DNA of 64,000 nt. It comes from an uncultured Lachnospiraceae bacterium. GTDB taxonomy: Bacteria > Bacillota > Clostridia > Lachnospirales > Lachnospiraceae. The position numbers and the translations under genes were made by a program. Where the stretch lies: the NCBI GenBank assembly GCA_946546945.1, contig CAMNOU010000001.1, positions 62,001-126,000 of the forward strand, read 5' to 3'. Every line of letters begins with the position of its first letter. Positions within the stretch are counted from its first letter, which is position 1. This document shows, one piece after another, positions 8,417-40,507 of the stretch. The notes beneath the pieces were generated by a model, which saw only the letters and a list, made by a program, of their open reading frames with translations, had not been told where the DNA came from and made no database searches.

Positions 8417-8419
8417 GGA

Positions 8420-8441: not shown

Positions 8442-8494
8442 GCTCCTGAAATAAAATAATAAGAAAACATAGTAGAAGAAAGGAAAATAGGATT

Positions 8495-9154: not shown

Positions 9155-9159
9155 TCCCT

Positions 9160-9176
9160 GTACGCCTGATGCGTAC
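9160..9176 (+). repeat. Short GTACGC palindrome between genes
   Basis: GTACGC-CTGAT-GCGTAC forms a 6-bp stem, followed by TTGA. Similar GTACG(C/T) palindromes ending in GTACTTG occur at 32721-32737 and 41756-41778, which suggests a small dispersed palindromic repeat. Confidence 0.35.
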
Positions 9177-9213
9177 TTGAACTGAGTGATGATTGAGAAG
9201 GAGAAAACCTATT

Positions 9214-13277: not shown

Positions 13278-13323
13278 AAAAATACGGCCCGGGGGTTTTT
13301 GAAATAACCCCCGGACTTTTTTT
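13276..13323. terminator. Bidirectional intrinsic terminator
   Basis: The stem CCGGGGGTT/AACCCCCGG (13289-13297 with 13306-13314) is followed on the plus strand by seven T and preceded by seven A. It can therefore terminate both the flavoprotein transcript and the convergent regulator transcript. Confidence 0.85.
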
Positions 13324-15742: not shown

Positions 15743-15754
15743 AGAGATCCTCCT

Positions 15755-18187
15755 TTAATCGGGTGTCCTTTCAAGCGTAATAAAACAGATTTCATTTCGG
15801 CTGACCGTTTCATCTATCTGAACAGATCCGGCGGCTGTCTGGGATGTGATGGTCATGGCAGGGACGCAGATCTGTTTCAGATGATTAAGCTCAAAGTCAT
15901 TCAGGTTGAGCGAATGGTCCAGTTTTCTCCATTCATGGAAAATAGAACCATGATCCGCGTTTTCAAGGTGATGCGCTATTTTGTAAGTGCCGGGCCGAAG
16001 TCCGTTCAGGCGCAGAGTAAGAAAAAGCGGTTTGGTATCCTCCAGTGCCGTCTCCGGATATTTTTCGATATCATAGAAGGACGGGTGATGACAGAAATTG
16101 GAAAGAAAATGGGCATAGTTATAAATCAGAATCTGATATCTGTCATTGCCGGAAGCCGTTATGATACACTGACTGTCCTGGTAGATCAGACGGTCTCCGA
16201 GCATGGAAAGGAAACCAAATGCGTGAAAGCCGGGTTTCTTGATCCCCAGACGGCTGATGATTCCGTTCCCTCCGAAGAGAAATGCGTTGTTCCCCGGGTA
16301 TTCATTTGCATAGTCCGTGGTCAGAAAATAACCCATGGCATCCACTTTGTCCCAGTTGTCCAGGCTCTGCTTCAGAATAAACATGGCCTGATACATGGAA
16401 TCATTGAAGGTGTTGTCAGGAGCGATATAGGTGCTGTATTCGGTAATGTACAAAGGAAGTTCGCCCATATGATTCTTCCGGCAGATCTCACGAAGTTTCG
16501 CAACTCTGTTCCGGAAAAAATCAGGATCATCCTCCAGTTCCACCTGTGTCCGGCGGCTGCCCGTCAGGATCTGCGGAGTCTTAAAGGAATAGATATAGAC
16601 GGATATAAAATCCGGATACAGCTGCGCGGCATGCAGGTGACTCAGGACCCGGTCAAAATGTTCGGAAGGAGTAAAACTGTTGTATCCGGGAGCACCTGTC
16701 TGCGCATCCGGAACGATGCTTTTGACAATGCTGTACAGAGTTTGAAAGCGCTTCACATATTCCTCCGGACGTTCTACTTCACTCAGATCAATGCTGCTGT
16801 AACGCATCCAGAGTTCAAATTTCCACGTAGAAACCTCTTCATAGCCGTAATGATTGACACAGGATTTCAGCAGCTCAAAGACAAGTTCGCCGAAAATCTG
16901 ATCCAGTGTATCCGGATTCCCGAGCGTCAGTTTCCCGTCCGGAAGATAGATGTCCGGTGATTTGTCTCCCAGGTCGAACAGCGGCTTCAGGCCAAGGCTG
17001 AGGATGAAGTCGATCACTTCAAATACCCGGGACAAATTAAAGGAATGCTTTCTTCCCTTTTGGAAGTAAGTGGAGATCAGAGACAAAATATTGGTCACTC
17101 TGCCATACCGGAAGTGAAGCTGACTCTGAAGCATCGTCAGATGTTCGCGGAAGGTAGGCATTTCAAAGTTCCGGGCGGTTCCGAGATTGATCAGCTCCTG
17201 CCATGTCGCGTGTAAAGAGGAGGTGTCCCTGACAAAGCAGACAATGTCTCTGTGCTGCGGATTCCGGATCACGGCGGGAGAACTGCCTGCATCGGTATGG
17301 ATGCTGTTGCTTAGATAATCGCGGATCACGGCAGGGTTAGTAAACGGATTGATGGATTTAAAGTTATCCGAAAAACCGCTCCTGTAATGCGTTCTGTATT
17401 GTTCCGGCGTGGTCAGGAACTTTTTCTGAAAGGCTTTCTGAAAGGAAGCCTGATTGGAAAAACCACACAGAAAACCAATCTGATCTCCCGGCAGATCTCT
17501 GTATTTCAGATAATTACATGCAGAATTGAGCCGGAGCTGATTCAGGTAGGTATTAAAGGTTTCCCCGGTCTGTTTTTTGATGAAATTCGACAGATACTGC
17601 GGCGTATAACTCATGTAATCGGCGGCATCCTGCAGTGTGATCTGAGACATGTGGTTGGCCTTCAGCCAGGCTTTCAGCTGTGTCAGCTTCATCTTCTGCT
17701 TATCCGTATTCTTCCCGGCGGAAGCCTCCGCATGCGGTTGAACCAGACAGTTCGCTTTTAACAGATGGAACACCTGATAGATCTGATGAAGGATCAGAAA
17801 GCGGTTTGTCTCCTGATCAGCCGTGTGGGCCATGGACAGTCTGACGAGTGCCGAAAAAATATCTTCATTATAAGAAGCGGGCGTCAGTACAGAATTGCAG
17901 GAAAGTTTTTCAAAATCCTCTGCAAACTGATCGGTAAAAAAAATATAATCAAAAAAAACAGTGAGGCACAGAGCTTTTTTGTCACTGCTCATCTGACAGT
18001 GCCCGGGATCTTTCATAAGAAGGAAGTCGCCGCTTTTCATGGTGCCGTAGAATTCGCGGAAATGGACCCGGGCATCGCCCTGAAGGATGCATAAAAAAGA
18101 GATGCCTTCATTATGAAAGGATTTGTCATAGTCTATATTGAACAAAAAAGAGGAGGACAAGGCCTCTTTTGTGGTAACAATGTCCAT
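15755..18187 (-). CDS. AraC-type regulator fused to a GH39-like domain (paralogue)
   Basis: The protein has 810 residues with the same architecture as its downstream neighbour: a cupin-like N-terminus, AraC HTH (LQDAADYMSYTPQYLSNFIKK and QIGFLCGFSNQASFQKAFQK, about residues 185-270), then a GH39-like barrel. The acid/base motif is again lost (WKFELWMRY where W.FE.WNEP is expected), while LYITEYSTY keeps the nucleophile Glu. Sequence divergence from the neighbour is large, so the duplication is old and the two may read different ligands. It is divergent from the solute-binding protein gene. Confidence 0.85.
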   Translation of the reverse strand: MDIVTTKEALSSSFLFNIDYDKSFHNEGISFLCILQGDARVHFREFYGTMKSGDFLLMKDPGHCQMSSDKKALCLTVFFDYIFFTDQFAEDFEKLSCNSVLTPASYNEDIFSALVRLSMAHTADQETNRFLILHQIYQVFHLLKANCLVQPHAEASAGKNTDKQKMKLTQLKAWLKANHMSQITLQDAADYMSYTPQYLSNFIKKQTGETFNTYLNQLRLNSACNYLKYRDLPGDQIGFLCGFSNQASFQKAFQKKFLTTPEQYRTHYRSGFSDNFKSINPFTNPAVIRDYLSNSIHTDAGSSPAVIRNPQHRDIVCFVRDTSSLHATWQELINLGTARNFEMPTFREHLTMLQSQLHFRYGRVTNILSLISTYFQKGRKHSFNLSRVFEVIDFILSLGLKPLFDLGDKSPDIYLPDGKLTLGNPDTLDQIFGELVFELLKSCVNHYGYEEVSTWKFELWMRYSSIDLSEVERPEEYVKRFQTLYSIVKSIVPDAQTGAPGYNSFTPSEHFDRVLSHLHAAQLYPDFISVYIYSFKTPQILTGSRRTQVELEDDPDFFRNRVAKLREICRKNHMGELPLYITEYSTYIAPDNTFNDSMYQAMFILKQSLDNWDKVDAMGYFLTTDYANEYPGNNAFLFGGNGIISRLGIKKPGFHAFGFLSMLGDRLIYQDSQCIITASGNDRYQILIYNYAHFLSNFCHHPSFYDIEKYPETALEDTKPLFLTLRLNGLRPGTYKIAHHLENADHGSIFHEWRKLDHSLNLNDFELNHLKQICVPAMTITSQTAAGSVQIDETVSRNEICFITLERTPD

Positions 18188-18436: not shown

Positions 18437-20026
18437 ATGAAATTGAGAAAACTTGCTTCAATTCTTCTTGTTGGCGCGATGGCATCTGCTTTACTGGCAG
18501 GCTGCGGCAGCGCTGCGACTGAGGAAGAAGCTGCACCGGGCGGCAATGCCGGTACAAGTGCAGAGGCGGAGACAGAAGAGGCGGAAGCGTTTACAGGCTT
18601 TGATGAGACTGAGAATATTGAGATGTACGGCCTGAGCTTCTATGGAGACAATGGTCTGACTGAGGTTATGGATGCAGTCAATGCAATTACAGAAGAACAG
18701 ATCAATGTACATGTAAACTTCACACCGATGGATGTTGCTACCTATATGGAGCAGATCGGACTTATGCTTTCCGGCGGAGAGTCCTTCGATCTGGTTATGG
18801 CAACAGCAATCCCGGTTGTTTCCTTCGGTACCATGCAGTCCCAGAATCAGCTGATGGACATCACAGAGTATATGGATGAGTATGCACCTGAACTTCTGGA
18901 AAAAATGGAAGAGTATATGCCGGCTACCACAGTAGATGGCAAGATTTATGGTGTTCCCTGCTACCGTATTTACAACTCCAGCTACTATGTGATCATGAGA
19001 AAGGACGTTCTTGATCAGCTGAATCTTACCGAGCAGGCACAGGCAATTGCAAGCTGGTCTGATTTCAAGGCGATTCTTGAGCAGGTAAGAGATGCGCAGG
19101 ATTCTCTTCCGGAAGAAATGAGAACCAACGCAATGATCTCCAACCAGGATGCACAGGGTACTGTATTTACAGGTCAGTATTCTGACATCGCTGCAGATGC
19201 ATTTGCAGATGACTTTGGTTTTGAGACACTTTCCGATACAAACAAGATCATCTATGTTGATGAAGAAGGAAAAGTTCAGAACTACTTTGCAACAGACGAT
19301 TACAGAGCAACCGTTGAGCGTGCACATGAGTGGCATGAGGCAGGCCTGATCTACAAGGATGCGGCTACATCCGACGAGACAGGTGATACCCTGATGAGAA
19401 ACGGCATCACATTCTCTTATGTAGTAACTTCCGAAATCGGTGTTGAGCAGGCAAAAGCTGCTGCAACAGGCCGTGAGATCATTGCAGTTCCGATCCATGA
19501 GATCCCGGTACAGACTTCCGTAGGTAACCAGTGGGCATGGTGTGTTCCGACTACATCCGAGCATCCGGAAGCAGCTGTTGCATTCCTGAACCTGTGGTAC
19601 AACAGCCCTGAACTTGAGAACCTGTTCGTATTCGGTATCGAAGGCAGAGACTATGAGCTGAATGATGCAGGCGAGGCAGTTCTCAAAGAGGATCATCAGT
19701 GGCAGTGGGATGACTTCTTCTCAGGCGATCAGTTCCTTGCATATCCGAAGGAAGGTTCCGGGGCTGATTTCCGTGAAGTATCCAAGGCAAGCCTGGATGA
19801 AGCAACCATCTCTCCGTACTATGGATGCACTGTAAACACAGACCCGATCGCAAACGAGCTGACTGCTCTTTCCAACGTATTAAAGAAATACGAGGCAGGT
19901 CTTGAAAGCGGTACAACAGATCCTTCCGGCATCGACCAGATGCTTTCCGAGCTTGAGAGCTCCGGTATGCAGACTGTTCTGGATTACTATCAGGAGCAGC
20001 TGGATGCATGGCTTGCAGAGCAGTAA
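18437..20026 (+). CDS. ABC transporter sugar-binding lipoprotein (LplA-like)
   Basis: The protein has 529 residues with a lipoprotein signal peptide ending in LLAGC (Cys about 23) and an acidic linker. A type 1 extracellular solute-binding domain with a DUF3502-like C-terminal half follows. This form is typical of the large LplA/YtcQ binders that work with LplB/LplC permeases and a shared ATPase encoded elsewhere; no ATPase gene is present here. It should capture an oligosaccharide or glycoside outside the membrane. It is the first gene of the long operon and is followed by a strong hairpin. Confidence 0.88.
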   Translation: MKLRKLASILLVGAMASALLAGCGSAATEEEAAPGGNAGTSAEAETEEAEAFTGFDETENIEMYGLSFYGDNGLTEVMDAVNAITEEQINVHVNFTPMDVATYMEQIGLMLSGGESFDLVMATAIPVVSFGTMQSQNQLMDITEYMDEYAPELLEKMEEYMPATTVDGKIYGVPCYRIYNSSYYVIMRKDVLDQLNLTEQAQAIASWSDFKAILEQVRDAQDSLPEEMRTNAMISNQDAQGTVFTGQYSDIAADAFADDFGFETLSDTNKIIYVDEEGKVQNYFATDDYRATVERAHEWHEAGLIYKDAATSDETGDTLMRNGITFSYVVTSEIGVEQAKAAATGREIIAVPIHEIPVQTSVGNQWAWCVPTTSEHPEAAVAFLNLWYNSPELENLFVFGIEGRDYELNDAGEAVLKEDHQWQWDDFFSGDQFLAYPKEGSGADFREVSKASLDEATISPYYGCTVNTDPIANELTALSNVLKKYEAGLESGTTDPSGIDQMLSELESSGMQTVLDYYQEQLDAWLAEQ

Positions 20027-20067
20027 GAGAGACATCAGACATTTAGATGAGAAGATATGAATGACAG

Positions 20068-20097
20068 TATCCGGCCGGACAGTGATCCGGCCGGATA
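20068..20097 (+). other. Very stable hairpin after the binding-protein gene
   Basis: A perfect 12-bp stem (TATCCGGCCGGA / TCCGGCCGGATA) has a 6-base loop and no T-tract. Placed between binding protein and permease, it is the classical arrangement for 3'-end protection or processing that gives more binding protein than permease. Confidence 0.6.
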
Positions 20098-20173
20098 GTA
20101 TCAAGCGAAACTTGAATTTAGGGAGACTAGAGTTTTGAGACTTATGTAGGGGATTTTCTGTAAGGAGATTATT

Positions 20174-21508
20174 ATGAATAACAAAAATATGTCGAAACTG
20201 GCATCTCTGAAGATTAAAATCATACCCCTGGCGCTGGCTGTAATCACACTGATCACATTGGTAATGCCGTATGCGACATATAAGTATCGTTCCCATACCT
20301 ATGCAGTGAAAGGAATCGGCCTTCTGACAAAGGCGACGATCTGCGGCGGCAAGATTACCATTCCGGTATCTCCTTTCCCTGTAGTGATGGTGGTGGCAGC
20401 GGTGCTTATCATTCTCATGGCGGTCTTCGCTGTGAAAAAACCTGCACTGAGCCTGGAAGTACTGACGATCGCGTCGGTAGCCGGCGTGATGTCGACATTC
20501 AAGATGGCGACAGGCATGTCAAAGGTGATTCCGGACGCGAAGAGCGTAGGGTCCTCCACCGGTGCTTTGGTGGCACTGATCCTGTTTATCCTGATTTTAA
20601 TCATAGGACTGTGGGAATTAAAAGAGTATAAGATACTGGGCGCACTGGATTTCATGTGCATTCCGGGTATGTTATACCTGCTGATCAACAACTACATACC
20701 GATGTTCGGTATTTACATTGCATTTAAGAAAGTCGATTATTCAAAAGGTCTGTGGAACAGTGACTGGGTCGGAATGACGAACTTCAAATATCTGTTCGCT
20801 TCCTCAGATGCTTTTATCATAACAAGAAATACATTACTTTACAATGTGGCTTTCATTGTACTCGGACTGCTCACCGGAATCATCGCAGGTATCTGTCTGG
20901 CTGAACTGTTCAGCAAAGTGGCGCAGAAGTTTTATCAGACAACGATCCTTCTGCCGCAGCTGATTTCCATGGTCATCGTATCCTATATCGTTTACGGTTT
21001 CCTGAGCAACGAAAGCGGTCTTCTGACCAAAGCCATGGGAGGTACGATCAACTTCTATGCTACGCCCAAGGTATGGCCGTTCATCCTGATTCTGGTCTAT
21101 ATCTGGAAACAGCTGGGCTACAACGCGATTGTATTCCTGTCCTCGATCGTTGGTATTGACAAGAGCATGTACGAGGCTGCCCGTGTAGACGGCGCAACCA
21201 AGATGCAGCAGATCATGAGAGTGACGATCCCGCAGCTGAAGCCGACGATCATCACCCTGTTCATCCTGCAGGTCGGCCGAATCTTCTATTCCGATTTCGG
21301 TCTGTTCTATCAGGTTCCGCTGGATGCCGGCGCGCTCTACAACGTGACCAATACCGTAGATACTTATGTATACCGCGCATTGCTGGTAAATAATAATATT
21401 TCTACCGCATCAGCGGCAAGTACCTATCAGGCAATCGTAGGTTTCGCAATTGTGTTTGCTGTAAACATGATCATCCGGAAGGTTGACCGGGAGAACGCAA
21501 TGTTCTAG
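20174..21508 (+). CDS. ABC transporter permease (LplB-like) with an N-terminal membrane extension
   Basis: The protein has 444 residues, about 140 longer than usual LplB permeases. The extra N-terminal part (about residues 1-155) has four hydrophobic segments. The canonical permease follows (MLYLLINNYIPMFGIYIAF...), including the EAA loop YEAARVDGATKMQQIMRVTIPQLKPT. It forms half of the membrane channel of the importer. The ribosome binding site AAGGAG supports the start, so the extension appears genuine. Confidence 0.88.
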   Translation: MNNKNMSKLASLKIKIIPLALAVITLITLVMPYATYKYRSHTYAVKGIGLLTKATICGGKITIPVSPFPVVMVVAAVLIILMAVFAVKKPALSLEVLTIASVAGVMSTFKMATGMSKVIPDAKSVGSSTGALVALILFILILIIGLWELKEYKILGALDFMCIPGMLYLLINNYIPMFGIYIAFKKVDYSKGLWNSDWVGMTNFKYLFASSDAFIITRNTLLYNVAFIVLGLLTGIIAGICLAELFSKVAQKFYQTTILLPQLISMVIVSYIVYGFLSNESGLLTKAMGGTINFYATPKVWPFILILVYIWKQLGYNAIVFLSSIVGIDKSMYEAARVDGATKMQQIMRVTIPQLKPTIITLFILQVGRIFYSDFGLFYQVPLDAGALYNVTNTVDTYVYRALLVNNNISTASAASTYQAIVGFAIVFAVNMIIRKVDRENAMF

Positions 21509-21526
21509 GAAAGGGGGATTGACATT

Positions 21527-22471
21527 ATGGCTAAAAAAAGTGTAAAAGAAGCAAATAAAAATATTGATGTTGATTCCGGCGTAAGAGGTGCCAGTGATAA
21601 GCGGTTCCAGATTGTGCTTCATGTCATCCTGATCATCATGACTGCAGCAGCAATCCTGCCGTTTGTGCTCCTGGTTGCTTCATCACTTACGGATGACGCA
21701 ACACTGATGAAATTCGGTTACAATTTCTGGCCGAGGAAGTTCTCCGGCTATGCATACAGCTACCTGTTCCACTCCAACGGAAGAAGCGTGTTCCATGCGT
21801 ATGGAATTACGATCATCATTACGATCGTCGGTACGATTCTTTCCCTGCTGGCAGGCCCCATGCTTGGCTATGCTTTGTCCAGAAGAGATTACAGCCGCGG
21901 AAGAGTACTCACATTCCTTGTGTTCTTTACCTCGCTGTTTAACGGCGGTCTGGTTCCTTCCTACATCATGTGGACACAGACCTTCCACGTGAAGAATACG
22001 ATTTTTGCGCTGATTTTCCCGACGCTTCTGTTCAACAGTTTTTACATTATTCTGTATAAGAATAACTTTGCGACGAATATCCATCCCGCCCTCATTGAGG
22101 CGGCCAAGATCGACGGTGCCGGCGAGTGGTACATCTACTTCAAGATCATATTGCCGCTGTCGCTTCCGATTCTGGCTACGGTAGGGCTTCTGGTTGCATT
22201 GGGATACTGGAATGACTGGCAGAACGGTCTGTACTTTATCTCGGATAAAAACCTGTACTCGCTGCAGCAGCTGTTGAAGAGTATCATTGATAATATCAAG
22301 GCGATGGCATCTGTCAGCACGGGATCCGTTGCGGACGCGGTTGCGAAGCTGCCGAGTAACTCGATCCGTATGGCGATGGCTGTTGTCGGCGTTATTCCGA
22401 TCATGGCGCTGTATCCTTTCTTCCAGAAGGCATTCGTTGCAGGTATCTCACTTGGCGGCGTAAAGGAATAA
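21527..22471 (+). CDS. Carbohydrate ABC transporter permease (LplC/YtcP-like)
   Basis: The protein has 314 residues with six predicted membrane helices and the EAA loop IEAAKIDGAGEWYIYFKIILPLS. The C-terminal GGVKE is typical of this permease class. It pairs with the preceding permease, 18 bases away, to import the ligand of the 18437 lipoprotein. Confidence 0.9.
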   Translation: MAKKSVKEANKNIDVDSGVRGASDKRFQIVLHVILIIMTAAAILPFVLLVASSLTDDATLMKFGYNFWPRKFSGYAYSYLFHSNGRSVFHAYGITIIITIVGTILSLLAGPMLGYALSRRDYSRGRVLTFLVFFTSLFNGGLVPSYIMWTQTFHVKNTIFALIFPTLLFNSFYIILYKNNFATNIHPALIEAAKIDGAGEWYIYFKIILPLSLPILATVGLLVALGYWNDWQNGLYFISDKNLYSLQQLLKSIIDNIKAMASVSTGSVADAVAKLPSNSIRMAMAVVGVIPIMALYPFFQKAFVAGISLGGVKE

Positions 22472-22484
22472 AGAGGGGATTGCT

Positions 22485-22820
22485 ATGACAAACAAAGAAG
22501 TTGTCCGGGCCATGTATGATGAGTTTTTCAACGCGCATGATATATCGGCGGCAGAGAAATATGTAAAAGAGGATTATATCCAGCATAATCCCGGCGTCGG
22601 GCAGGGAAGAGCTGCCCTGATGGAAGGGTTTGCAAAGAAATTTGAGATGGAGCCCACGTTTCACCTTGAGATCAAGATGATGATCGAAGAAGATGATAAA
22701 GTGGCAGTCTATCTGAAAAATGTGGATCCCGAGGGAAACACGAAAGCCAGAGTGGTAGATATCTATCGTCTGGAAGATGGTAAGTTAGCAGAGCACTGGG
22801 ATGTCCTGATGCCTGTATAA
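22485..22820 (+). CDS. SnoaL/NTF2-like small protein
   Basis: The protein has 111 residues with a cone-shaped NTF2 fold pattern: VRAMYDEFFNAHD, YVKEDYIQHNPGVGQGRAAL and VVDIYRLEDGKLAEHWDV at the end. The family includes ester cyclases, ketosteroid-isomerase-like proteins and dehydratases that act on keto compounds. In this operon it could isomerise or hydrate a keto-sugar or enone intermediate, but that is inference. It starts 13 bases after the permease. Confidence 0.75.
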   Translation: MTNKEVVRAMYDEFFNAHDISAAEKYVKEDYIQHNPGVGQGRAALMEGFAKKFEMEPTFHLEIKMMIEEDDKVAVYLKNVDPEGNTKARVVDIYRLEDGKLAEHWDVLMPV

Positions 22821-22843
22821 TTAAGAAATGGAGGATTACGAAA

Positions 22844-23959
22844 ATGAAAAACGGAAAAGTTCAGATCGGTATTGTAGGATGCGGCGGAATCGCGAATCAG
22901 AAACATATGCCGGCAATGAAGGCAAACGCTGACCTTTGTGATATTATTGCATTCTGCGATATCATTGAAGAGCGCGCAATCAAAGCAAAAGAAGATTTCG
23001 GCACACCGGATGCAAAAGTATATACGGACTATAAAGAGCTGGTTAAGAATCCGGATATCGATGTTGTACATGTACTGACACCGAACGTTGCTCACTGCCC
23101 GATCACCGTTGCTGCATTTGAGGCCGGCAAGCATGTACTGAGCGAGAAGCCGATGGCTCACAATACTGCAGATGCACAGAAGATGATCGATGCATGGAAG
23201 AAGTCCGGAAAGAAGTTCACGATCGGATATCAGAACCGTTTCCGTGAAGAAGTTATGAACCTCCATGCAGCATGCGAGAAAGGGGAACTCGGTGAGATCT
23301 ATTACGGAAAAGCACACGCAGTTCGCCGCAGAGCAGTTCCTACCTGGGGCGTATTCCCGAACAAGGCTCTTCAGGGCGGCGGTCCCCTGATCGACATCGG
23401 AACACATGCGCTGGATATCACCTTATGGTGCATGAACAATTACAAGCCGGTTAGCGTTACAGGTTCTGTATATTACAAATTAGGCCATATGCCGGAAGCA
23501 GTAGAAGGAAACCTGTTCGGACCATGGGATCCGGAAACTTATGAGGTAGAGGATTCCGCAATGGGATTCATCAAGATGGAAAACGGAGCTACCATTGCTC
23601 TGGAAGCATCCTGGGCACTGAACATGCTTGATTCCAGAGAAGCATCCACCACACTTTGCGGAACACTGGCAGGCGCAGAGGTTCGTTCCGGCATGAGCTA
23701 CAGCAAGAACGAGCTGATCTACAACCGCGGCCGCAACGGACAGCTGATGCAGGAGACCATTTCTCCGGTAGGTCAGGTCGCATACTTCGGCGGCGGCGGA
23801 AGCGCAGAAGGCGTTGCTGAGAACAGACAGTGGATGGAAGCAATCATCAACGATACTGAGCCGTTGGTAAAACCTGAGCAGGCATTTGTTGTTACACAGA
23901 TTCTTGAGGCAATCTATGAGTCTGACAAACAGGGTAAAGAAATTTACTTAAATAAATAA
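22844..23959 (+). CDS. Gfo/Idh/MocA family oxidoreductase, candidate glycoside 3-dehydrogenase
   Basis: The protein has 371 residues. The N-terminal Rossmann domain has GCGGIANQKHMPA, the catalytic Lys lies in EKPMAHN (101-103), and the sugar-binding Asp184 and His188 lie in LIDIGTHALD. Cytosolic NAD-dependent members oxidise sugar hydroxyls; DgpA/CarA-like steps in C-glycoside breakdown make 3-keto-glycosides. Placed between the importer and the C-glycosidase-like pair, it is the best candidate for that oxidation. A terminator follows. Confidence 0.85.
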   Translation: MKNGKVQIGIVGCGGIANQKHMPAMKANADLCDIIAFCDIIEERAIKAKEDFGTPDAKVYTDYKELVKNPDIDVVHVLTPNVAHCPITVAAFEAGKHVLSEKPMAHNTADAQKMIDAWKKSGKKFTIGYQNRFREEVMNLHAACEKGELGEIYYGKAHAVRRRAVPTWGVFPNKALQGGGPLIDIGTHALDITLWCMNNYKPVSVTGSVYYKLGHMPEAVEGNLFGPWDPETYEVEDSAMGFIKMENGATIALEASWALNMLDSREASTTLCGTLAGAEVRSGMSYSKNELIYNRGRNGQLMQETISPVGQVAYFGGGGSAEGVAENRQWMEAIINDTEPLVKPEQAFVVTQILEAIYESDKQGKEIYLNK

Positions 23960-23970
23960 TAATGTCGCTG

Positions 23971-24006
23971 AAGGGCTGCTTAAGATTCTTATCCGGCAGC
24001 CCTTTT
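23971..24006 (+). terminator. Intrinsic terminator after the Gfo/Idh/MocA gene
   Basis: A 9-bp stem AAGGGCTGC/GCAGCCCTT with a 16-base loop is followed by TTAT. The short T-run suggests partial read-through into the next gene. Confidence 0.6.
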
Positions 24007-24037
24007 ATGTATATGATTCAGAAAGAAGGAGAAAAAA

Positions 24038-24958
24038 ATGAAATTAGGATTTGTCAGCGCTATTTTGGATCAGAGCAGCTTTGAAGAGATGATGGATATT
24101 GCCGGCGAGCTTCAGTTCGAGTGCGTGGAAGTTGCATGCTGGCCGCAGGGAAAGGCAGAAAGAAGATATGCAGGAGTCAGCCATATTGATGCTGAGCGTG
24201 TGAATACAGATGATGCTTACGCAAAGCATATCCTGGATTATGCGGCGCAGAAGGGCGTGGAGATCTCTTCTCTTGCATACTATCCGAATACTCTGGATCC
24301 GGATCCGGAGAAACGCAGTACGGCAGTGGAGCACTTAAAAGAGCTGATCAAAGCGAGTGCGAAGCTTGGCGTGAATATGGTCACGACCTTTATCGGACGC
24401 GACCAGTCAAAGACAGTGGAGGAGAACCTGGAAATCGTGAAGGAAGTATGGCCTCCGATCATTGCCCTGGCAGAAGAACAGGGTGTGAAGGTGGCAATTG
24501 AGAACTGCCCGATGCTGTTCGGAACGGATCAGTGGCCGGGAGGACAGAACCTGATGACGACTCCCGCGAACTGGAGAAAGGTATTTGAAATCCTTCCGAG
24601 TGACAATTTCGGCATCAATTATGATCCGTCTCATTTTGTATGGCAGATGATCGATTACATTAAGCCGATCTACGAGTTCAGGGACAAGATCTTCCATGTA
24701 CACTATAAGGATATCAAGATCTATCCGGACAAACTTCAGGAAGTGGGCATCATGGGGTATCCGCTTGACTTTATGTCTCCGAAGCTTCCCGGATATGGAG
24801 ATGTAGACTGGGGCAAATATGTATCTGCCTTGACAGATATCGGCTATGACGGCTATACTTGTATCGAAGTTGAGGATAAATTCTTTGAGGGAAGCCAGAA
24901 GAAGGTACTGGATTCTCTGAAACTCTCCAGAAATTATATGAGAAATTTTGTCATCTAA
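24038..24958 (+). CDS. Sugar phosphate isomerase/epimerase family TIM barrel
   Basis: The protein has 306 residues of the xylose-isomerase-like / AP endonuclease 2 barrel. Metal-ligand candidates are Glu155 (AIENCP), Asp196 and His199 (NYDPSHFVW), His222 (HVHYKD) and Glu277 (CIEVED). Members act as keto-sugar isomerases, epimerases and, in 3-keto-glycoside pathways, hydratases of 2-hydroxy-3-keto-glucal. Its place between a candidate 3-dehydrogenase and the C-glycosidase-like pair fits a hydratase or isomerase step. A strong terminator follows. Confidence 0.83.
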   Translation: MKLGFVSAILDQSSFEEMMDIAGELQFECVEVACWPQGKAERRYAGVSHIDAERVNTDDAYAKHILDYAAQKGVEISSLAYYPNTLDPDPEKRSTAVEHLKELIKASAKLGVNMVTTFIGRDQSKTVEENLEIVKEVWPPIIALAEEQGVKVAIENCPMLFGTDQWPGGQNLMTTPANWRKVFEILPSDNFGINYDPSHFVWQMIDYIKPIYEFRDKIFHVHYKDIKIYPDKLQEVGIMGYPLDFMSPKLPGYGDVDWGKYVSALTDIGYDGYTCIEVEDKFFEGSQKKVLDSLKLSRNYMRNFVI

Positions 24959-24966
24959 ATAAAAAA

Positions 24967-25000
24967 TGTTCAGAGCCTGAAATACGGCTCTGAACAATTT
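24967..25000 (+). terminator. Intrinsic terminator
   Basis: A perfect 11-bp stem TGTTCAGAGCC/GGCTCTGAACA with an 8-base loop is followed by ATTTT. It separates the importer block from the alpha/beta pair, so the downstream genes may have another promoter or rely on read-through. Confidence 0.7.
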
Positions 25001-25024
25001 TGACCGGAATGTTGGAGGAATCAT

Positions 25025-25477
25025 ATGTTTGATCAGTATCTGATAGAAAAAGACAGTCTTCAGAATGTGGTGGAAGACGGAAAAGTGACCGGTTTTAAGT
25101 TTGGCGTACGCATAGCGGATTACCGGGGCTGTTTTTTATCGCTGCATAACGGATATTACATTACCTGCGACGGAGTGGAATACCCGAAGGAACTGCAGAG
25201 ATTTGAAATCAACGGGAAAGCACCGCGTGATTTTGAAGAGATAAAGACTTGTGTCTGGGAACACTGGGACTATGACGATACCGGATATGTGTATGTGACC
25301 AAAGAAGGCGGGCTTACTCCGGGAAAACATACGATCGGTCTGCAGCAGTCCATTCTGGCACAGTACGGCTACATGCCCTGGGATGAAGAATGGGTAAAGA
25401 ACCCGCCGGTTCCGGGAAGGGGCGCTTCCGGGAAGACGGATGTAGTCTGCATGTTCGAGATGGAATTACAGGAATAG
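25025..25477 (+). CDS. C-glycoside deglycosidase beta-subunit-like protein (DUF6379)
   Basis: The protein has 150 residues, predicted all-beta. The layout matches the small beta-sandwich subunit of C-glycoside deglycosidases (DfgB/CarC-type): FKFGVRIADYRG near residue 25, GYYITCDGVEYPKELQRFEINGKAP in the middle, HTIGLQQSILAQYGYMPW and a C-terminal FEMELQE. In that family the beta subunit completes the active site of the TIM-barrel alpha subunit, which cleaves 3-keto C-glycosides. The gene ends 12 bases before exactly such an alpha-subunit-like gene. The assignment is from memory of the family and needs a profile search; the pairing makes it credible. Confidence 0.72.
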   Translation: MFDQYLIEKDSLQNVVEDGKVTGFKFGVRIADYRGCFLSLHNGYYITCDGVEYPKELQRFEINGKAPRDFEEIKTCVWEHWDYDDTGYVYVTKEGGLTPGKHTIGLQQSILAQYGYMPWDEEWVKNPPVPGRGASGKTDVVCMFEMELQE

Positions 25478-25489
25478 GAGGGCGGAAAG

Positions 25490-26536
25490 ATGGCAATCAA
25501 AAGAGGCGTATCATTATACAGTTATCAGCAGGAGCAGTTTTTCCGCAGGATGACCTGGAAGGACCAGATCAGGGAAGTGCATGACAATCTGCATACTGAC
25601 GGCATCGAGATTATCGATGAGGCGGTGATCCGCAGATATCCGTTCCCCTCCGATGAATTTATTTTTGACTGGAACAGCTATATGGCGCGTTACAACATGA
25701 ATGCAGTGACGATGGATATTTATCTGGATGTGCATCAGTTCCGCGATCATGTCATGAATCACGCGGAGGCCGCTGAACGGCTGAAAAATGATATTAAGAT
25801 CGCTTCCAGAATGGGCTTTAAGAATGTGCGCTGCCTGTGCCTGGTGCCCACAGATGTGATCGAGATGGCTCTGCCGACAGCGGAAAAATACGATGTGCGC
25901 ATTGGGAAGGAAATCCATGCGCCGCTTCCGATCAAACCAGGTCTGACGCACAAAAACATTGACCCGGTGATGGATCCCAGAATGGTAGATCAGATGATTG
26001 AGATGATTGAACGCACCGGCACAAAACATGCCGGACTGGTGCCGGATTTCGGTATTTTCCAGCATTCGCCTACAGATCTGGCCATTGCTTACTATAAGCG
26101 TGTGATGAATCCGGATATGATCGACTTTATCCTGGAAAAGGCACAGGAAGGACTTATGGCGGGCGATATCGCTCCCCTGCTGGATGAGAAGTTCCCGGGG
26201 CACAAGATGAATTTCATGACGCTTGGAAGTCTTGTATTAAAGGAATCCAGCGCGAAGCCGGAAGATATTAAGGATATTATTCCTTATATCGTCAGCATTC
26301 ACGGCAAGTTCTATCATATGACCGAGATTGAAGGAAGGCCCGGGCAGTATGAGGATAAAGCCATCGACTATGAAACACCGATCCGGTATCTGAAGGAGTG
26401 CGGATTTGACGGATATATTGATTCTGAGTTTGAGGGACAGCGCTACTGTCAGGATGGCGGCGTGGATCAGATGATCGATGAGGTAGAACAGGTGCGTCGG
26501 CATCATGAAATGCTTACCCGTCTGATCGGAGAATAA
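25490..26536 (+). CDS. C-glycoside deglycosidase alpha-subunit-like TIM barrel
   Basis: The protein has 348 residues and is a sugar phosphate isomerase/epimerase-fold protein. Candidate Mn-binding residues are Glu141 and His143 (GKEIHAP), Asp186 (VPDFGIF), His271 (IHGKFYHM) and Glu313 (DSEFEGQRY). Long relatives of this type, always beside a DUF6379 partner, form the alpha/beta enzymes that cut the C-C bond of 3-keto C-glycosides by base-catalysed elimination (DfgA/CarB-type). Enzyme specificity, C- versus O-glycoside, cannot be read here. AGGAGGGCGG precedes the start. Confidence 0.75.
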   Translation: MAIKRGVSLYSYQQEQFFRRMTWKDQIREVHDNLHTDGIEIIDEAVIRRYPFPSDEFIFDWNSYMARYNMNAVTMDIYLDVHQFRDHVMNHAEAAERLKNDIKIASRMGFKNVRCLCLVPTDVIEMALPTAEKYDVRIGKEIHAPLPIKPGLTHKNIDPVMDPRMVDQMIEMIERTGTKHAGLVPDFGIFQHSPTDLAIAYYKRVMNPDMIDFILEKAQEGLMAGDIAPLLDEKFPGHKMNFMTLGSLVLKESSAKPEDIKDIIPYIVSIHGKFYHMTEIEGRPGQYEDKAIDYETPIRYLKECGFDGYIDSEFEGQRYCQDGGVDQMIDEVEQVRRHHEMLTRLIGE

Positions 26537-26548
26537 TGAGGTAGTGAC

Positions 26549-27268
26549 ATGGGTTTTCTGAGCTTCAACAGCCCGTTTGTTCAGGGATTATATAAAATTG
26601 CGAATATGATTCTGGTGAGTCTGATGTGGATCCTTTTTTGTATTCCGGTATTTACGGCAGGCGCATCGACGACTGCGCTGTATTATACCGTGCAGAAAAA
26701 TATCAAAAACAACAGAGGCGATTCCTGGAGCTGTTTCTGGCAGAGCTTTAAGGCAAATTTCAAACAATCTGTGCTGATCACACTCATTTTTATTGTGATC
26801 GCAGCCATTCTGCTGACGGATATCTCCATTTTGAATACGCTGACGGAAATGGGGAAGACAGCCGGTTACGCACGTATTTTCTTTTATGTAGTCCTCGGGG
26901 TAGTGTGTGTATACGCGTTTTGGGTCTTCGCCTATATCGCGCGTTTCAAAAGTACCATCAAAGACACCCTGAAAAATGCAATGGCTCTTGCGGTCATGCA
27001 TTTCCCGGTCACCATTGTGGTCGCTGCGATCGGTGCATTTTCCATCTTCCTGATCTGGCTTGTCCACGTGGCGGTTGTGATCATGCCCGCGGCAAGCGTC
27101 GTGATGATGAGTATCTTTACAGAGAAGGTCTTCCGGCTGTACATGACAGAATCCGATAAACGCGATGAGGATGAGCGCAACATGGAATGGCACGATGACT
27201 ATGAAGATGCGCCGGGAAAATTTGACAGAAATGGCGGGAAGAAGAGCTTGTGGAAAAGAAAAAGATAA
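26549..27268 (+). CDS. YesL family membrane protein (DUF624)
   Basis: The protein has 239 residues with about five hydrophobic segments (near 15-40, 75-95, 105-130, 150-170 and 172-195) and the family's opening GFLSFNSPFVQGLYKIANMI. YesL proteins recur in Firmicute sugar operons next to LplABC-type importers and their function is unknown. The charged C-terminus overlaps the next gene by 19 bases, which implies translational coupling. Confidence 0.82.
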   Translation: MGFLSFNSPFVQGLYKIANMILVSLMWILFCIPVFTAGASTTALYYTVQKNIKNNRGDSWSCFWQSFKANFKQSVLITLIFIVIAAILLTDISILNTLTEMGKTAGYARIFFYVVLGVVCVYAFWVFAYIARFKSTIKDTLKNAMALAVMHFPVTIVVAAIGAFSIFLIWLVHVAVVIMPAASVVMMSIFTEKVFRLYMTESDKRDEDERNMEWHDDYEDAPGKFDRNGGKKSLWKRKR

Positions 27269-27906
27269 CAGAGGGCATGACCGGCAGGCAGAAAGCCGCC
27301 TGGTTCTGGTATTATTACAAATGGTTTGTGATCCTGGCTGTCGGACTGGGGCTGTTCGCCGTGTGGGGCGCAGTTTCGGTACACAGAGAATATAATAAAG
27401 AGTATATTGCAAACGTACAGTTCGTAAATTGCGAGACCTATACGGTGGATCAGAGCGATTATTTCGACCGGTTTCTGAATGAATACGGATATGAGGAAGA
27501 TACATTGATCGGTGTGGATTCCACGGTAGAAGTGAATCTGGACGGAGGGGGGCAGTCTTCTGCCTCCGGTCTTCAGGTTCTCGCGGCCATGTTCCTGACC
27601 GGAGAGATGGATCTTTTTATATCCGATGAGCCTCTGTTTGCTCTGGAGTGCGAAAAGAATGCGTTCGCTGATTTAAGGACCGTGCTCACAGAAAGCCAGC
27701 TGGAGACGTATGCGTCTTCCCTTTATTATGCCGAAAATCCGGAAACCGGAGAACAGGTTCCGTGCGGCCTGTATCTGGCAGACACCGCGGTGTGCCGGAC
27801 AGAACAATTCTACCGTGCGGAGGATTCCCCGGTGATTGGGGTCGCGAGCCAGTCACAGGCAGCGGAAGAGGATGTTGTCCGGCTGCTGGAATACTTCATG
27901 AAATAA
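27250..27906 (+). CDS. Membrane-anchored extracytoplasmic protein, unknown
   Basis: The protein has 218 residues from GTG 27250 (alternative ATG 27277). A Lys-rich N-terminus and one membrane segment (WFVILAVGLGLFAVWGAVSV, about 25-45) are followed by an acidic domain outside the cell. Stretches such as MDLFISDEPLFALEC suggest a binding-protein-like lobe. I do not recognise a characterised family. Overlap with YesL suggests the two act together. Confidence 0.6.
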   Translation: MEKKKITEGMTGRQKAAWFWYYYKWFVILAVGLGLFAVWGAVSVHREYNKEYIANVQFVNCETYTVDQSDYFDRFLNEYGYEEDTLIGVDSTVEVNLDGGGQSSASGLQVLAAMFLTGEMDLFISDEPLFALECEKNAFADLRTVLTESQLETYASSLYYAENPETGEQVPCGLYLADTAVCRTEQFYRAEDSPVIGVASQSQAAEEDVVRLLEYFMK

Positions 27907-27934
27907 AAAGCAGGAAAAGAGGGTTCCCTGGAAG

Positions 27935-28630
27935 ATGAAACAGAAAAAGAAATTAACGATTGTACTTGTTATTGTGATCGCAGCCGTCATTGCGGCAATC
28001 GCTGCGGTGGTGCTGATCAGGAAAAATACACATGCACCGGCCCCTGAACAGACGGCGGCTGACCTGATCCGGGATACAGCTGATCTGGCTGTCGCGGAGG
28101 CTTATTGCTGTGATCTGACCGTGTACGGCGACGACAACACAAAGCTTTGGGTATGCTTTGACGAAGAAAAGCAGGAATTCGTCAACCGCGTCGGGGATGA
28201 GCCCGCGCTGCAGGGAGTTTATACACTGAATGGAAATGAGATCATTACCACTGCTTCCGATGAAGATGGGAATGAACTGGCTTCCATCAGATATATCCTG
28301 GATGACAGGTACCTGCTGATCGAAGATGGCATGTACTCCGGGGATATCCCTGAGGGAGAAACGTTCGATGCTTCCGCAGAGAAAACGGACAGTTCGGGAA
28401 TGCTGATTCGCTATACCTTTCAAAAGGACGGCACCTATACCTGTCTGGAGGTCCCCGCAGGAAAGTCGGAAAAAGAAGGAACCGTTATGGAGGGAACCTA
28501 TAAAAAGAATGGAAATCTGATCGAGAGGACCCTGAGCGGCAACGAAATGATTCCGTTTTATGTATATGCCGGTCATCTGTTCCCGTCCTATTACGTGGAG
28601 ACAGAGGCACCGGAATTCGATGAAAAATAA
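27935..28630 (+). CDS. Membrane-anchored extracytoplasmic protein, unknown
   Basis: The protein has 231 residues with an N-terminal anchor (residues about 7-28, Val/Ile/Ala-rich) after KQKKK, then a soluble, mainly beta domain with a repeated pattern: GVYTLNGNEIITT near 90 and GTYKKNGNLIERT near 190. It is similar to small lipocalin- or meander-like repeat proteins. It has no enzyme motif. It sits between the YesL pair and the glucokinase in the same direction. Confidence 0.55.
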   Translation: MKQKKKLTIVLVIVIAAVIAAIAAVVLIRKNTHAPAPEQTAADLIRDTADLAVAEAYCCDLTVYGDDNTKLWVCFDEEKQEFVNRVGDEPALQGVYTLNGNEIITTASDEDGNELASIRYILDDRYLLIEDGMYSGDIPEGETFDASAEKTDSSGMLIRYTFQKDGTYTCLEVPAGKSEKEGTVMEGTYKKNGNLIERTLSGNEMIPFYVYAGHLFPSYYVETEAPEFDEK

Positions 28631-28664
28631 AGATAGAAAAAACGAGAGTGGGAGGAGAATTGTT

Positions 28665-29600
28665 ATGAAAAAATATGCCTTTGGAGTTGATATCGGAGGA
28701 ACGACCGTAAAAATGGGCTTTTTCTCTGTTTCCGGAGAACTCCTGGACAAATGGGAGATCAAGACCGATACATCAGATGCCGGAAAAAACATTCTTCCGG
28801 ACATCGCAGCCTCCATCAAAGACAAACTGGAGGCAGACCATATCGCGGCTGAAGAAGTCAGCGGGATCGGAATGGGCATACCGGGACCTGTCGATGACGA
28901 GGGCAATGTGCTGAAATGTGTCAATCTGGGATGGGGTGTATTTAATGTGGAGAAGGAGATGACAGATCTGACCGGAATCCCTGCAAAAGCCGGCAATGAC
29001 GCGAATGTTGCCGCTCTCGGAGAGATGTACCAGGGAGGCGGAAAAGGTTATTCCAATGTCGTTATGGTCACGCTGGGAACCGGCGTGGGCGGAGGCATCA
29101 TCCTGAACGGAAAGATCCTGTCCGGAACCCACGGAGCAGCCGGCGAGATTGGACATTTCCCGGTCAATGACGAGGAAACAGAGTGTTGCGGATGCGGCAA
29201 GAAAGGCTGTCTGGAGCAGTATGCCTCTGCGAACGGAATCGCGAGAGTCGCAAGACAGAGACTGGCAGCGACCGAAGACGAGACCGTTCTTCGCAGCCTG
29301 GAGACGGTTACATCGAAGGATATCTTTGATGCTGCCAAGGAAGGAGATGCATTTTCCCTGCAGCTGGTGGATGATCTGGGCCGCATGATCGGAAAGGCAT
29401 GCGCCAATATCGCAATCGTAGTGGATCCGGAGATCTTTGTCATTGGCGGCGGTGTATCAAAGGCAGGAGCAATCCTGACCGATGTCATTGAGAAATATTA
29501 TAAAGAATATGCTTTTCATGCATCCCGTGAAACCAGGATCAGCCTGGCTACGCTTGGTAATGATGCAGGCATCTTCGGCGGAGTGAAGATGGTACTCTGA
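28665..29600 (+). CDS. ROK family glucokinase
   Basis: The protein has 311 residues from ATG 28665, set by GGGAGGAG upstream; an open frame extends further 5' but lacks a site. The ATP motif is GVDIGGTTVKMGFF, followed by GNDANVAALGE with the catalytic Asp, then GTGVGGGIILNGKI. The ROK zinc cluster is EIGHFPVNDEETECCGCGKKGCLEQYAS (as pieces: GHF, CCGCGKKGC). It should phosphorylate free glucose, the expected end product of the deglycosylation steps, linking this operon to glycolysis. Confidence 0.92.
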   Translation: MKKYAFGVDIGGTTVKMGFFSVSGELLDKWEIKTDTSDAGKNILPDIAASIKDKLEADHIAAEEVSGIGMGIPGPVDDEGNVLKCVNLGWGVFNVEKEMTDLTGIPAKAGNDANVAALGEMYQGGGKGYSNVVMVTLGTGVGGGIILNGKILSGTHGAAGEIGHFPVNDEETECCGCGKKGCLEQYASANGIARVARQRLAATEDETVLRSLETVTSKDIFDAAKEGDAFSLQLVDDLGRMIGKACANIAIVVDPEIFVIGGGVSKAGAILTDVIEKYYKEYAFHASRETRISLATLGNDAGIFGGVKMVL

Positions 29601-29654
29601 TGCCGTAAGCGGTGCCCTTTGCCGAAGCAGAACTGCAAAAGCAAAAATATACGC

Positions 29655-29697
29655 AAAAATAATGCGCTTCACAAATCTGTGAGGCGCATTATTTTGT
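29655..29697. terminator. Bidirectional intrinsic terminator
   Basis: The stem AATGCGC-TTCAC / GTGA-GGCGCATT (29661-29690) has an A-run before it and ATTTTG after it. It lies between the convergent glucokinase and MATE genes. Confidence 0.75.
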
Positions 29698-29704
29698 TCC
29701 CGAT

Positions 29705-29743
29705 TCAACAATCCTTCTTCGTCATGAGTCCAAACTCGCGACG
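29705..29743. repeat. 39-bp repeat copy A (3' end of the MATE gene)
   Basis: This 39-base stretch, starting at the MATE stop codon, is repeated without mismatch at 41664-41702. It includes the codons for the C-terminal FGLMTKKDC. Being within the intact gene, this is probably the original copy. Confidence 0.85.
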
Positions 29744-34263: not shown

Positions 34264-34317
34264 AGTATTTAAAAAAGAAAAAAAGTGTTCTCTTCTTACT
34301 CACTTTTTAACAGGAGC

Positions 34318-34338
34318 GGCGCCGGCATGACCGGCGCC
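34318..34338 (+). other. G/C-rich intercistronic hairpin
   Basis: The perfect 8-bp stem GGCGCCGG-CATGA-CCGGCGCC, followed by only three T, lies between the cyclase and dehydrogenase genes. It may attenuate transcription or protect the upstream mRNA. Confidence 0.5.
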
Positions 34339-34371
34339 ACTGTTTGAAAAAGAGCGGAAAGGAAATAGGAA

Positions 34372-35316: not shown

Positions 35317-35332
35317 GGAGGATAAGACAGAA

Positions 35333-39454: not shown

Positions 39455-40507
39455 ATGGCAAAGTTCAAGTTTGGAATCATTGGATTTGGTTTTATGGGGC
39501 ATGAGCATGCGAATATGCTTGCGAATTTCCCGGATGATATCGAACTGGTCGCTGTCGCAGACACAAATCCGGATCAGCTGACAGATGCGCCGGAGGGGGT
39601 TCATACCTATGCATCCGCAGATGATCTGATCGCGAATGAGACATTGGATACGGTGATCATTGCTACGCCGAACCCGTCCCACATTGAGATGGTGAAAAAG
39701 ACAGCGGCAGCAAAGATCAATACGATCTGCGAAAAGCCGGCTGCAATGTCTGTAGCTGAGTTTGATGAGATGGTGAAAGTGACAAAAGAAGCAGGAATCC
39801 TTTTCACGATCCATCATCAGAGAAGATGGGATTATGACTATCGCATCATGAAGGAAGTTTATGACAAACACATGGTCGGCGATGTCTATGTGATCAAATC
39901 TCAGCTGTACGGCGTAAACGGAAATATGCATGACTGGCATATTTATCCGGAGATGGGAGGAGGCATGCTCTATGACTGGGGCGTACATCTCATCGACCAG
40001 ATGCTGAATATGGTAGATTCCGAAGTGGACTCTGTATTTGCTGACGTGAGAAACGTCATTAATAAAGAGGTTGATGACTACTTCAAGATTCTTTTTGAGT
40101 TCAAGAACGGTGTTCTGGCAGAGATTGAGCTGGGAACCTATTATCTGACCCCGAAGCGCGCATGGTTCATGGGCGGCAACGGCGGAAGCGCAATTATCGA
40201 CGGATTTGCGGGAGAGGGGACCATTGTACATACGACCCGTCTTCTGGAGAACGTTCCAGGCAAGATCACGATGACAGCAGCAGGTCCGACCAGAAGCTTT
40301 GGACCGCCAGCACCGGGAGTTCTGTATGAAGAACCGCTTCCGGAAGTGCATGTATCACACAAGAACTACTGGGAGCATTATCTGAAAGCGCTGCGCGGTG
40401 AGGAAGAACTTATGATCCAGCCGCAGCAGGTTCGCCGGGTATTGAGCATCATGGATGCGATCCGTGAGTCCGGAAAGACGCACGAAGCGATTCGTTTTGA
40501 ACATTAA
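39455..40507 (+). CDS. Gfo/Idh/MocA family oxidoreductase
   Basis: The protein has 350 residues with the Rossmann motif GFGFMGHEHANML, catalytic Lys in CEKPAAMS (93-95) and the Asp174/His178 pair in YDWGVHLID. It is a second such enzyme besides that at 22844 and only distantly similar. It should oxidise or reduce a sugar or inositol hydroxyl with NAD(H), and could reduce 3-keto-glucose back or oxidise another glycoside. It is the last gene before a terminator, so it belongs with the 33379 operon or has its own start. Confidence 0.85.
   Translation: MAKFKFGIIGFGFMGHEHANMLANFPDDIELVAVADTNPDQLTDAPEGVHTYASADDLIANETLDTVIIATPNPSHIEMVKKTAAAKINTICEKPAAMSVAEFDEMVKVTKEAGILFTIHHQRRWDYDYRIMKEVYDKHMVGDVYVIKSQLYGVNGNMHDWHIYPEMGGGMLYDWGVHLIDQMLNMVDSEVDSVFADVRNVINKEVDDYFKILFEFKNGVLAEIELGTYYLTPKRAWFMGGNGGSAIIDGFAGEGTIVHTTRLLENVPGKITMTAAGPTRSFGPPAPGVLYEEPLPEVHVSHKNYWEHYLKALRGEEELMIQPQQVRRVLSIMDAIRESGKTHEAIRFEH

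Follow-up and report, generated by a model that had tools for sequence, protein, structure and literature searches.

C–C glycosidic bonds withstand ordinary glycosidases, and gut bacteria determine which plant C-glycosides arrive in the host as aglycones. Described C-glycoside deglycosidases (CGDs), which have an alpha and a beta subunit, provide the points of reference. In AgCGD2, E147, D179, H269, K271 and E305 are metal ligands, and H149 and E307 are catalytic (Mori et al. 2021, PMC8563793). In PuCGE, Tyr39 of the beta subunit is required for C–C cleavage and much less so for C–O cleavage (PMC10628242, PMC13273386), the Y39F exchange reducing O-cleavage 2.4-fold and nearly abolishing C-cleavage, and Tyr303 and Tyr39 form the oxyanion pocket (PMC10628242). 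The oxidase D3dgpA accepts many C- and O-glucosides (PMC11239390). We analysed 64,000 nucleotides from an uncultured Lachnospiraceae bacterium, probably a gut inhabitant to judge by its DgpA and context (GenBank assembly GCA_946546945.1, contig CAMNOU010000001.1, positions 62,001 to 126,000; hereafter the window), and above all positions 18437–29600, where an oxidase of the DgpA type lies beside a CGD. With a probability of about 0.77, this locus encodes enzymes that take apart beta-glucosides of aromatic aglycones, most likely C-glucosides, without hydrolysis, and its CGD belongs to a subfamily with a rebuilt aglycone side. The chemistry is known; what is new is the lyase variant and the linkage of a hydratase candidate to dgpA. 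The features on which this reading rests are as follows.

22844..23959, plus strand: DgpA-type glycoside 3-oxidoreductase, Gfo/Idh/MocA family (PDB 7xr9 DgpA, 618 bits, E 5.7e-185)
24038..24958, plus strand: probable 2-hydroxy-3-keto-glucal hydratase, AP_endonuc_2 TIM barrel
25025..25477, plus strand: CGD beta subunit with catalytic Tyr33 (CGDB PF19906, 6e-38; PDB CGD beta chains)
25364..25435, plus strand: clade-specific beta loop, residues about 114–137, past the EuCGD Pro115 position
25490..26536, plus strand: CGD alpha subunit, TIM barrel, predicted metal-dependent lyase (E141, H143, D186, H271, K273, E313, E315)
26327..26344, plus strand: clade-specific six-residue alpha insertion, residues 280–285, behind the HxK metal ligands
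28665..29600, plus strand: ROK glucokinase (TIGR00744, 8.6e-93, over the NCBIfam cut-off)
39455..40507, plus strand: second Gfo/Idh/MocA protein, candidate 3-keto-glucose reductase of the module (relatives in genus genomes)

Beta 25025 matches Pfam PF19906, 'C-glycoside deglycosidase beta subunit', with 129.6 bits against a cut-off of 27.6. A PDB sequence search at E ≤ 0.01 yields seven distinct relatives, every one a CGD chain, and PDB relatives carry the name DUF6379; the 17 matches of a fold search at E ≤ 0.001 are CGDs without exception. Alpha 25490 matches eight distinct PDB sequences at E ≤ 0.01, CGD chains only (8qvc, the best, 170 bits; 9m3b, 138; 8qrz, 119; DfgA, 118; DgpC, 104; 7dnm, 83.6). 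The AgCGD2 residues E147, H149, D179, H269, K271, E305 and E307 correspond, in this order, to the seven residues listed above for alpha 25490, and none of these columns varies among the 36 alphas of the tree described below or among all 55 alphas aligned. Tyr33 of beta 25025 falls on PuCGE Tyr39 in the PDB sequence alignment and is kept in 50 of 50 betas. Judged by sequence, the assignment of 25490 and 25025 as CGD alpha and beta subunits holds, and so does that of 22844 as a DgpA glycoside 3-oxidoreductase, whose match to 7xr9 extends over residues 5–363 and is followed by W974-1 DgpA1 (9m3d, 485 bits), the next match scoring 107. The ROK protein is the single TIGR00744 match in the whole source genome. 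An earlier annotation made from the letters of the window (the sequence-only reading) had named a DUF6379-like protein, a longer TIM barrel with matching metal residues, a Gfo/Idh/MocA oxidoreductase that it linked to the DgpA/CarA type and a ROK glucokinase, all of which are borne out; gene calls and Pfam also reproduce its gene set, order and coordinates for the block (12 genes scanned), including the gap of 12 bases between beta and alpha (25477 to 25490). Of the conditions it named as refuting, a missing match between the small protein and the beta-subunit family is clearly contradicted by PF19906 and the PDB chains.

In a maximum-likelihood tree of 36 alphas, 12 loci including that of alpha 25490 form one clade with support of 100/100, separate from the rows representing the DgpC, DfgA, P581a DgpC1 and Deinococcus aerius CGD types. 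These rows are stand-ins picked by PDB score, D. aetherius being taken for D. aerius by eye, and CarC-type enzymes, which have no row, are compared solely through the 83.6 bits to 7dnm. Two of the genome scans each report 299 genomes, and their handles agree where listed. The deeper forks are weak (48/90) and five rows drew a long-branch warning, one of them (G268) inside the clade, so that any order of joining among the CGD clades is tentative. Of the 55 alpha open reading frames, 36 went into the tree and the pair counts, namely 12 of 13 from the clade and 24 of 42 others; the second tandem clade alpha in G086 C5 was left out, and the others were hand-picked from alphas with a paired beta. 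Residue and insertion counts were rerun on all 55 alphas and on 50 betas, to which the beta on contig C7 of the source genome does not belong.

Two insertions mark the clade. The alpha stretch 274–292 has 19 residues in 13/13 clade alphas, 12–13 in 41 of the 42 others and 21 in the remaining one. The beta stretch 111–143 has 33–35 residues in 12/12 clade betas and 14–22 in the 38 others, and in the C7 beta, a further non-clade sequence, it is 28 residues long and unrelated in sequence. The clade's beta loop starts at residues aligned with YMPP of the beta on contig C19, whose second Pro is number 115 (the C19 and EuCGD betas are taken, by alignment, to share one numbering). In the predicted model of beta 25025 (pLDDT 88.7, 20 sequences), it connects the last two strands, 100–110 and 142–148, and its middle has a pLDDT of 68–75. 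Directly before Tyr33, Asp or Asn is found in all 12 clade betas, and the 38 others have Tyr (31), Ser (3), Thr (2), Ala (1) or Trp (1). Gln317, at the place of PuCGE Tyr303, occurs in 13/13 clade alphas and was dropped as a private mark, being carried by 4 of the 42 others too. Beta identity exceeds alpha identity in 61 of 66 clade pairs (means 65.1 and 55.0%), against 0/28 pairs of the 38k type and 1/10 of the Dgp type, but in 8/10 of the 24k type; the last value led us to reject this trait as unique to the clade. We read the clade as a CGD subfamily with no solved or characterized member found and a putatively rebuilt aglycone side. Given such rebuilding, the window CGD would be expected to act on an aglycone unlike those of DgpBC and DfgAB, and the clear sequence marks predict the same. 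Two arrangements were seen alongside: one clade beta followed by two tandem alpha subunits in G086 (L097:10025–12757), and natural beta–alpha fusion CGDs in G129 (L094:3980–5371 and L095:2440–3924), like Microbacterium testaceum 8qrz.

With a threshold of E ≤ 1e-60, orthologues of alpha 25490 were found in 8 of 397 genomes of the family and 2 of 391 of the class, the source genome being counted in both. None of the 19 other genomes of the genus has one, their best match standing at E 4.0e-33 with 32% identity. Named plasmid-borne relatives are those of Niallia sp. Man26 (45%), Novosphingobium resinovorum SA1 (41%) and Pantoea piersonii (38%); a search of genome contigs for related loci produced a single short, weak match (31 residues, 44%). 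A 13th clade locus, in G785 from another family, has the beta loop, and its alpha is cut off ahead of the insertion. The source genome itself matches PF19906 in six places, four of them within 70 kb on contig C1. By PDB score, three of the other five alphas clearly fall into described types, the C19 alpha with DfgA (570 bits), C1:18195 with W974-1 DgpC2 (412 bits; DgpC 341) and C1:23283 with P581a DgpC1 (428 bits). More distant are the C7 alpha (best DfgA, 251 bits) and C1:38951 (D. aerius CGD, 230 bits). The latter forms its own group in the tree, which does not join the D. aetherius row, and a D. aerius type was rejected for it. With 170 bits, alpha 25490 has the lowest best PDB score of the six. 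DgpA is present in one close copy (22844) and one at 42%, and a single DgpA oxidase may serve several lyases. The locus also suggests a modular design with one oxidase–hydratase–reductase–kinase core and interchangeable lyases.

From these homologies and linkages we infer the following route. The glycoside would enter through the ABC importer encoded at 18437–22471, and DgpA 22844, with bound NAD+, would oxidize its glucose at C3. The CGD (25490 and 25025) would then split the 3-keto-glycoside by metal-assisted beta-elimination, with His143 of alpha abstracting the C2 proton and Tyr33 of beta holding the ionized aglycone, to yield the aglycone and 2-hydroxy-3-keto-glucal. The 24038 product would add water to this glucal to give 3-keto-glucose, which DgpA itself or the second Gfo/Idh (39455) would convert into glucose, resetting the NAD, and the ROK kinase would produce glucose 6-phosphate. 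Judged by gene content, most of a 3-keto-glycoside pathway of the DgpA/CGD kind is encoded here.

Several findings weigh against this interpretation. No importer ATPase gene was found among the 12 genes scanned, so that the 'full' import of the sequence-only reading is not supported, whereas its 3-keto route as far as glucose 6-phosphate is well supported. Importers of such kind often share one ATPase. Hairpins inside the block speak against a single operon. The AP_endonuc_2 score of alpha 25490 (28.7) lies under the Pfam cut-off of 31.1, and no reported activity or paper on clade members was found in the open-access literature, with searches not worded for the clade itself. PuCGE, moreover, also cleaves 3-keto-phlorizin, an O-glucoside (PMC10628242, PMC13273386), and C-specificity is thus not derivable from homology: of the substrates named by the sequence-only reading, plant C-glycosides or other 3-keto-opened glycosides, the 3-keto part stands and the C-glycoside part is a likelihood. 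The same enzymes could have an aromatic O-glucoside as physiological substrate, with C-glycosides a side activity at most. PuCGE activities are indeed comparable, at 1.25 U/mg on 3-keto-phlorizin and 0.64 U/mg on 3-keto-nothofagin (PMC13273386), and D3dgpA oxidizes many O-glucosides, most 3-oxo products of which decay unaided (PMC11239390). However, the beta tyrosine, present in every beta aligned, matters chiefly for C–C cleavage, as PuCGE Y39F indicates (PMC10628242), and because the O-products fall apart without an enzyme, selection for the alpha/beta pair would be better explained by C–C bonds. We regard an O-glucoside as an unlikely, though not negligible, physiological substrate.

Further points concern the hydration step. 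The 24038 product, which the sequence-only reading took for isomerase-like, is probably better read as a hydratase, since AtHYD is its closest structure of known function in a fold comparison, leading the next family by about 3 Z units. Its identity to AtHYD in the structural alignment is just 26%, however, and SCO6571, for which no function was found, is closer to it. A hydratase of this type is absent from G268, G290 and nine further DgpA genomes among 32, and no hydratase relative was found in eight same-family stretches (20–36 kb) around clade CGD genes; in G129, G086 and G310 a relative is present elsewhere in the genome, outside the clade CGD stretch. Could 24038 instead be a 3-keto-O-glycoside lyase or a sugar epimerase? 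The lead of AtHYD in the fold comparison makes this improbable, and the tight linkage of 24038-family genes to dgpA, seen across many genomes, suits a hydration step; the Agrobacterium tumefaciens eliminase AtOGE was not among the fold rows shown for 24038, which excludes nothing. Relatives of 39455 (52–56%) come after the dgpA and hydratase genes in 5/5 other genus genomes with a close dgpA. The tie of the 24038 family to DgpA makes the whole sugar path in anaerobes directly testable. It is very unlikely that the alpha/beta pair, instead of being an aglycone lyase, works on a different 3-keto sugar compound as an epimerase, a hydratase or a disaccharide lyase: the barrel superfamily contains YcjR, which is in the fold list of 24038, and the aglycone side is rebuilt in the clade, but the catalytic residues and the beta tyrosine are all retained, dgpA is adjacent and every PDB match at E ≤ 0.01 is a CGD.

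Other clade loci may bear on the aglycone. DgpA relatives (61–76%) lie in the same stretch as a clade CGD pair in G129, G382, G340, G310, G391 and Niallia; relatives of the window permeases are near clade CGDs in G382, G086 C3 and G310, with permease 2 alone in G785, and homologues of the window's AraC-GH39 regulators (listed below) in G310, G340 and Niallia. In N. resinovorum, the CGD pair is surrounded by a GMC oxidoreductase, a beta-propeller lactonase, a Gfo/Idh and a hydratase-like barrel (30% to 24038); genes for a VanB-type reductase, a Rieske oxygenase and gallate dioxygenase follow at a distance of 1.4 kb. The Pantoea locus has a GMC oxidoreductase, a lactonase and a glucokinase. Bergenin is a lactone of 4-O-methylgallic acid C-glucoside, and the Novosphingobium gene set could be read as lactone opening, C–C cleavage, O-demethylation and gallate ring cleavage. 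Bergenin is a substrate for oxidation by the DgpA of Dorea MRG-IFC3 (PMC11239390), yet this puerarin-cleaving gut strain does not convert it, which calls for a separate lyase. It is conceivable, if rather doubtful, that the clade acts specifically on C-glucosides whose aglycones are of the gallic-acid type, and foremost on bergenin; the beta loop and Asp/Asn32, at the rebuilt aglycone site, would then be the adaptation. Against this stand the presence of a lactonase in only 2 of 12 clade loci and of gallate genes in one; no lactonase was found in the same-family clade loci, where lactonase genes are on other contigs, and no gallate genes were recognized in the Niallia or window locus. As a marker in same-family genomes the lactonase was discarded, PF10282 occurring in 7/8, always off the CGD-locus contigs and probably in a housekeeping role. 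In the window, positions 2385–10266 carry an FGGY kinase, zinc and iron alcohol dehydrogenases, a BaiCD-like enoate reductase, a class II aldolase and a D-2-hydroxyacid dehydrogenase; relatives of these genes (65–81%) adjoin the clade CGD locus in G129, and they may be part of the same metabolism.

The other features of the block and its surroundings are listed below; beyond 18437–29600, the relevant genes are the two regulators (13322–18187, minus strand) and the second Gfo/Idh.

13322..15742, minus strand: AraC-type regulator fused to a GH39-like domain, candidate sensor/regulator (HTH_18 2.7e-22, Glyco_hydro_39 4.5e-36)
15755..18187, minus strand: second AraC-GH39 fusion regulator, divergent from the transporter genes (Glyco_hydro_39 2.8e-35, HTH_18 1e-17)
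18437..20026, plus strand: solute-binding lipoprotein (SBP) of the ABC importer (SBP_bac_8 3.3e-21, DUF3502 2.4e-19; lipoprotein from the N-terminus read in the sequence)
20055..20110, plus strand: RNA hairpin behind the SBP gene (−29.1 kcal/mol, z −6.87)
20174..21508, plus strand: ABC importer permease 1 (BPD_transp_1 4.7e-14)
21527..22471, plus strand: ABC importer permease 2 (BPD_transp_1 1.5e-12)
22485..22820, plus strand: SnoaL/NTF2-like protein (SnoaL 2.3e-20)
23955..24025, plus strand: terminator- or attenuator-like hairpin with a U run behind dgpA (−20.8 kcal/mol, z −3.33; absent from the terminator-scan list)
24955..25015, plus strand: hairpin between the hydratase and CGD beta genes (−20.7 kcal/mol, z −6.24; terminator-like on the minus strand)
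26549..27268, plus strand: DUF624/YesL (MusI-like) membrane protein (DUF624 2.8e-18; MusI 7.2e-26, below the MusI cut-off)
27250..27906, plus strand: membrane-anchored protein (no Pfam match; hydrophobic N-terminal stretch read in the sequence)
27935..28630, plus strand: membrane-anchored protein (NlpE 8.1e-4, under the cut-off; hydrophobic N-terminal stretch read in the sequence)
29640..29705, plus strand: hairpin closing the gene block (−25.7 kcal/mol, z −5.81)

Intergenic gaps are −19 to 34 bases inside blocks; wider ones follow the SBP gene (147 bases) and dgpA (78) and precede the beta gene (66), and each of these three has a stable hairpin. A promoter-like site lies at 24830–24859 within the hydratase gene (11/12 consensus match), but it is weak evidence, the scan having given 26 sites against 17.3 expected by chance. 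This layout suggests more than one transcription unit, and because of the internal hairpins at 20055, 23955 and 24955 and the promoter-like site, we do not call the block one operon, as the sequence-only reading had done. Two further SBPs (G000 C1:51353–53056 and 57130–58716) are about 61% identical to SBP 18437, and C1:1–145000 contains only one permease pair of this importer type; several binding proteins may share one channel. The SnoaL-like gene sits between importer and dgpA. At 4 of 19 genus loci, relatives of it neighbour a ROK glucokinase gene, and relatives also lie near a CGD in genome G002. YesL, 27250 and 27935 were considered as a general glucokinase block and rejected: none was found within about 1.5 kb of any of 19 other genus ROK loci, and these three are thus only putative parts of the pathway.

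On contig C1, five homologous AraC-GH39-type regulators (785–840 aa) lie next to CGD or SBP loci, namely the two in the window, where Pfam shows the GH39 domain, and those at G000 C1:19182, 33412 and 53229, where it is assigned by homology. Where GH39 enzymes have the catalytic Asn-Glu, the window regulators have MR and AK, and a Thr-Glu site is kept in all five. These regulators may be sugar sensors that no longer hydrolyse. Elsewhere in the window, a cyclase-family protein, a 3-hydroxyacyl-CoA-dehydrogenase-like protein and a thiolase are encoded in a row (33379–36511), a trio resembling the DPGC, TfD and thiolase genes by which phloroglucinol is broken down anaerobically (PMC10470551), and the source genome has three BKACE (TAL family) genes at other places. 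The aglycone ring is possibly consumed as well.

Among the known systems, DgpA-DgpB-DgpC of Dorea sp. PUE (puerarin; 7xr9, 7bvr) likewise has a DgpA-type oxidase beside CGD alpha and beta, with catalytic residues and beta tyrosine kept. Whereas the window DgpA is close to it (618 bits), alpha and beta are remote (104 and 38 bits), and the nearest DgpC-type enzyme of the genome is the C1:18195 copy (341 bits), not the window alpha. The CGD of D. aerius (8qvc, 8umc) is the best PDB sequence match of the window alpha (170 bits), but its D. aetherius relative has neither the alpha insertion nor the beta loop and falls outside the clade. With DfgA-DfgB of Eubacterium cellulosolvens (EuCGD, 7bvs), the window CGD has family, fold and catalytic set in common; the nearest DfgA relative in the genome is, however, the C19 copy (570 bits), the window alpha reaching 118 bits. 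The A. tumefaciens pathway of GlycDH, AtOGE, AtHYD and Gfo takes the same four steps of oxidation, elimination, hydration and reduction with the same hydratase fold, but its dehydrogenase is a flavoprotein and its eliminase has no sequence relationship to CGDs (PMC10628242). Catenibacillus genomes, with several DgpA and DgpBC sets (PMC11170127), resemble the source genome in carrying many CGD copies per gut genome. For C. scindens, C. faecavium and C. tixagia, that paper describes dgpA as separate from dgpBC, whereas in the window dgpA, hydratase, CGD and glucokinase genes stand together.

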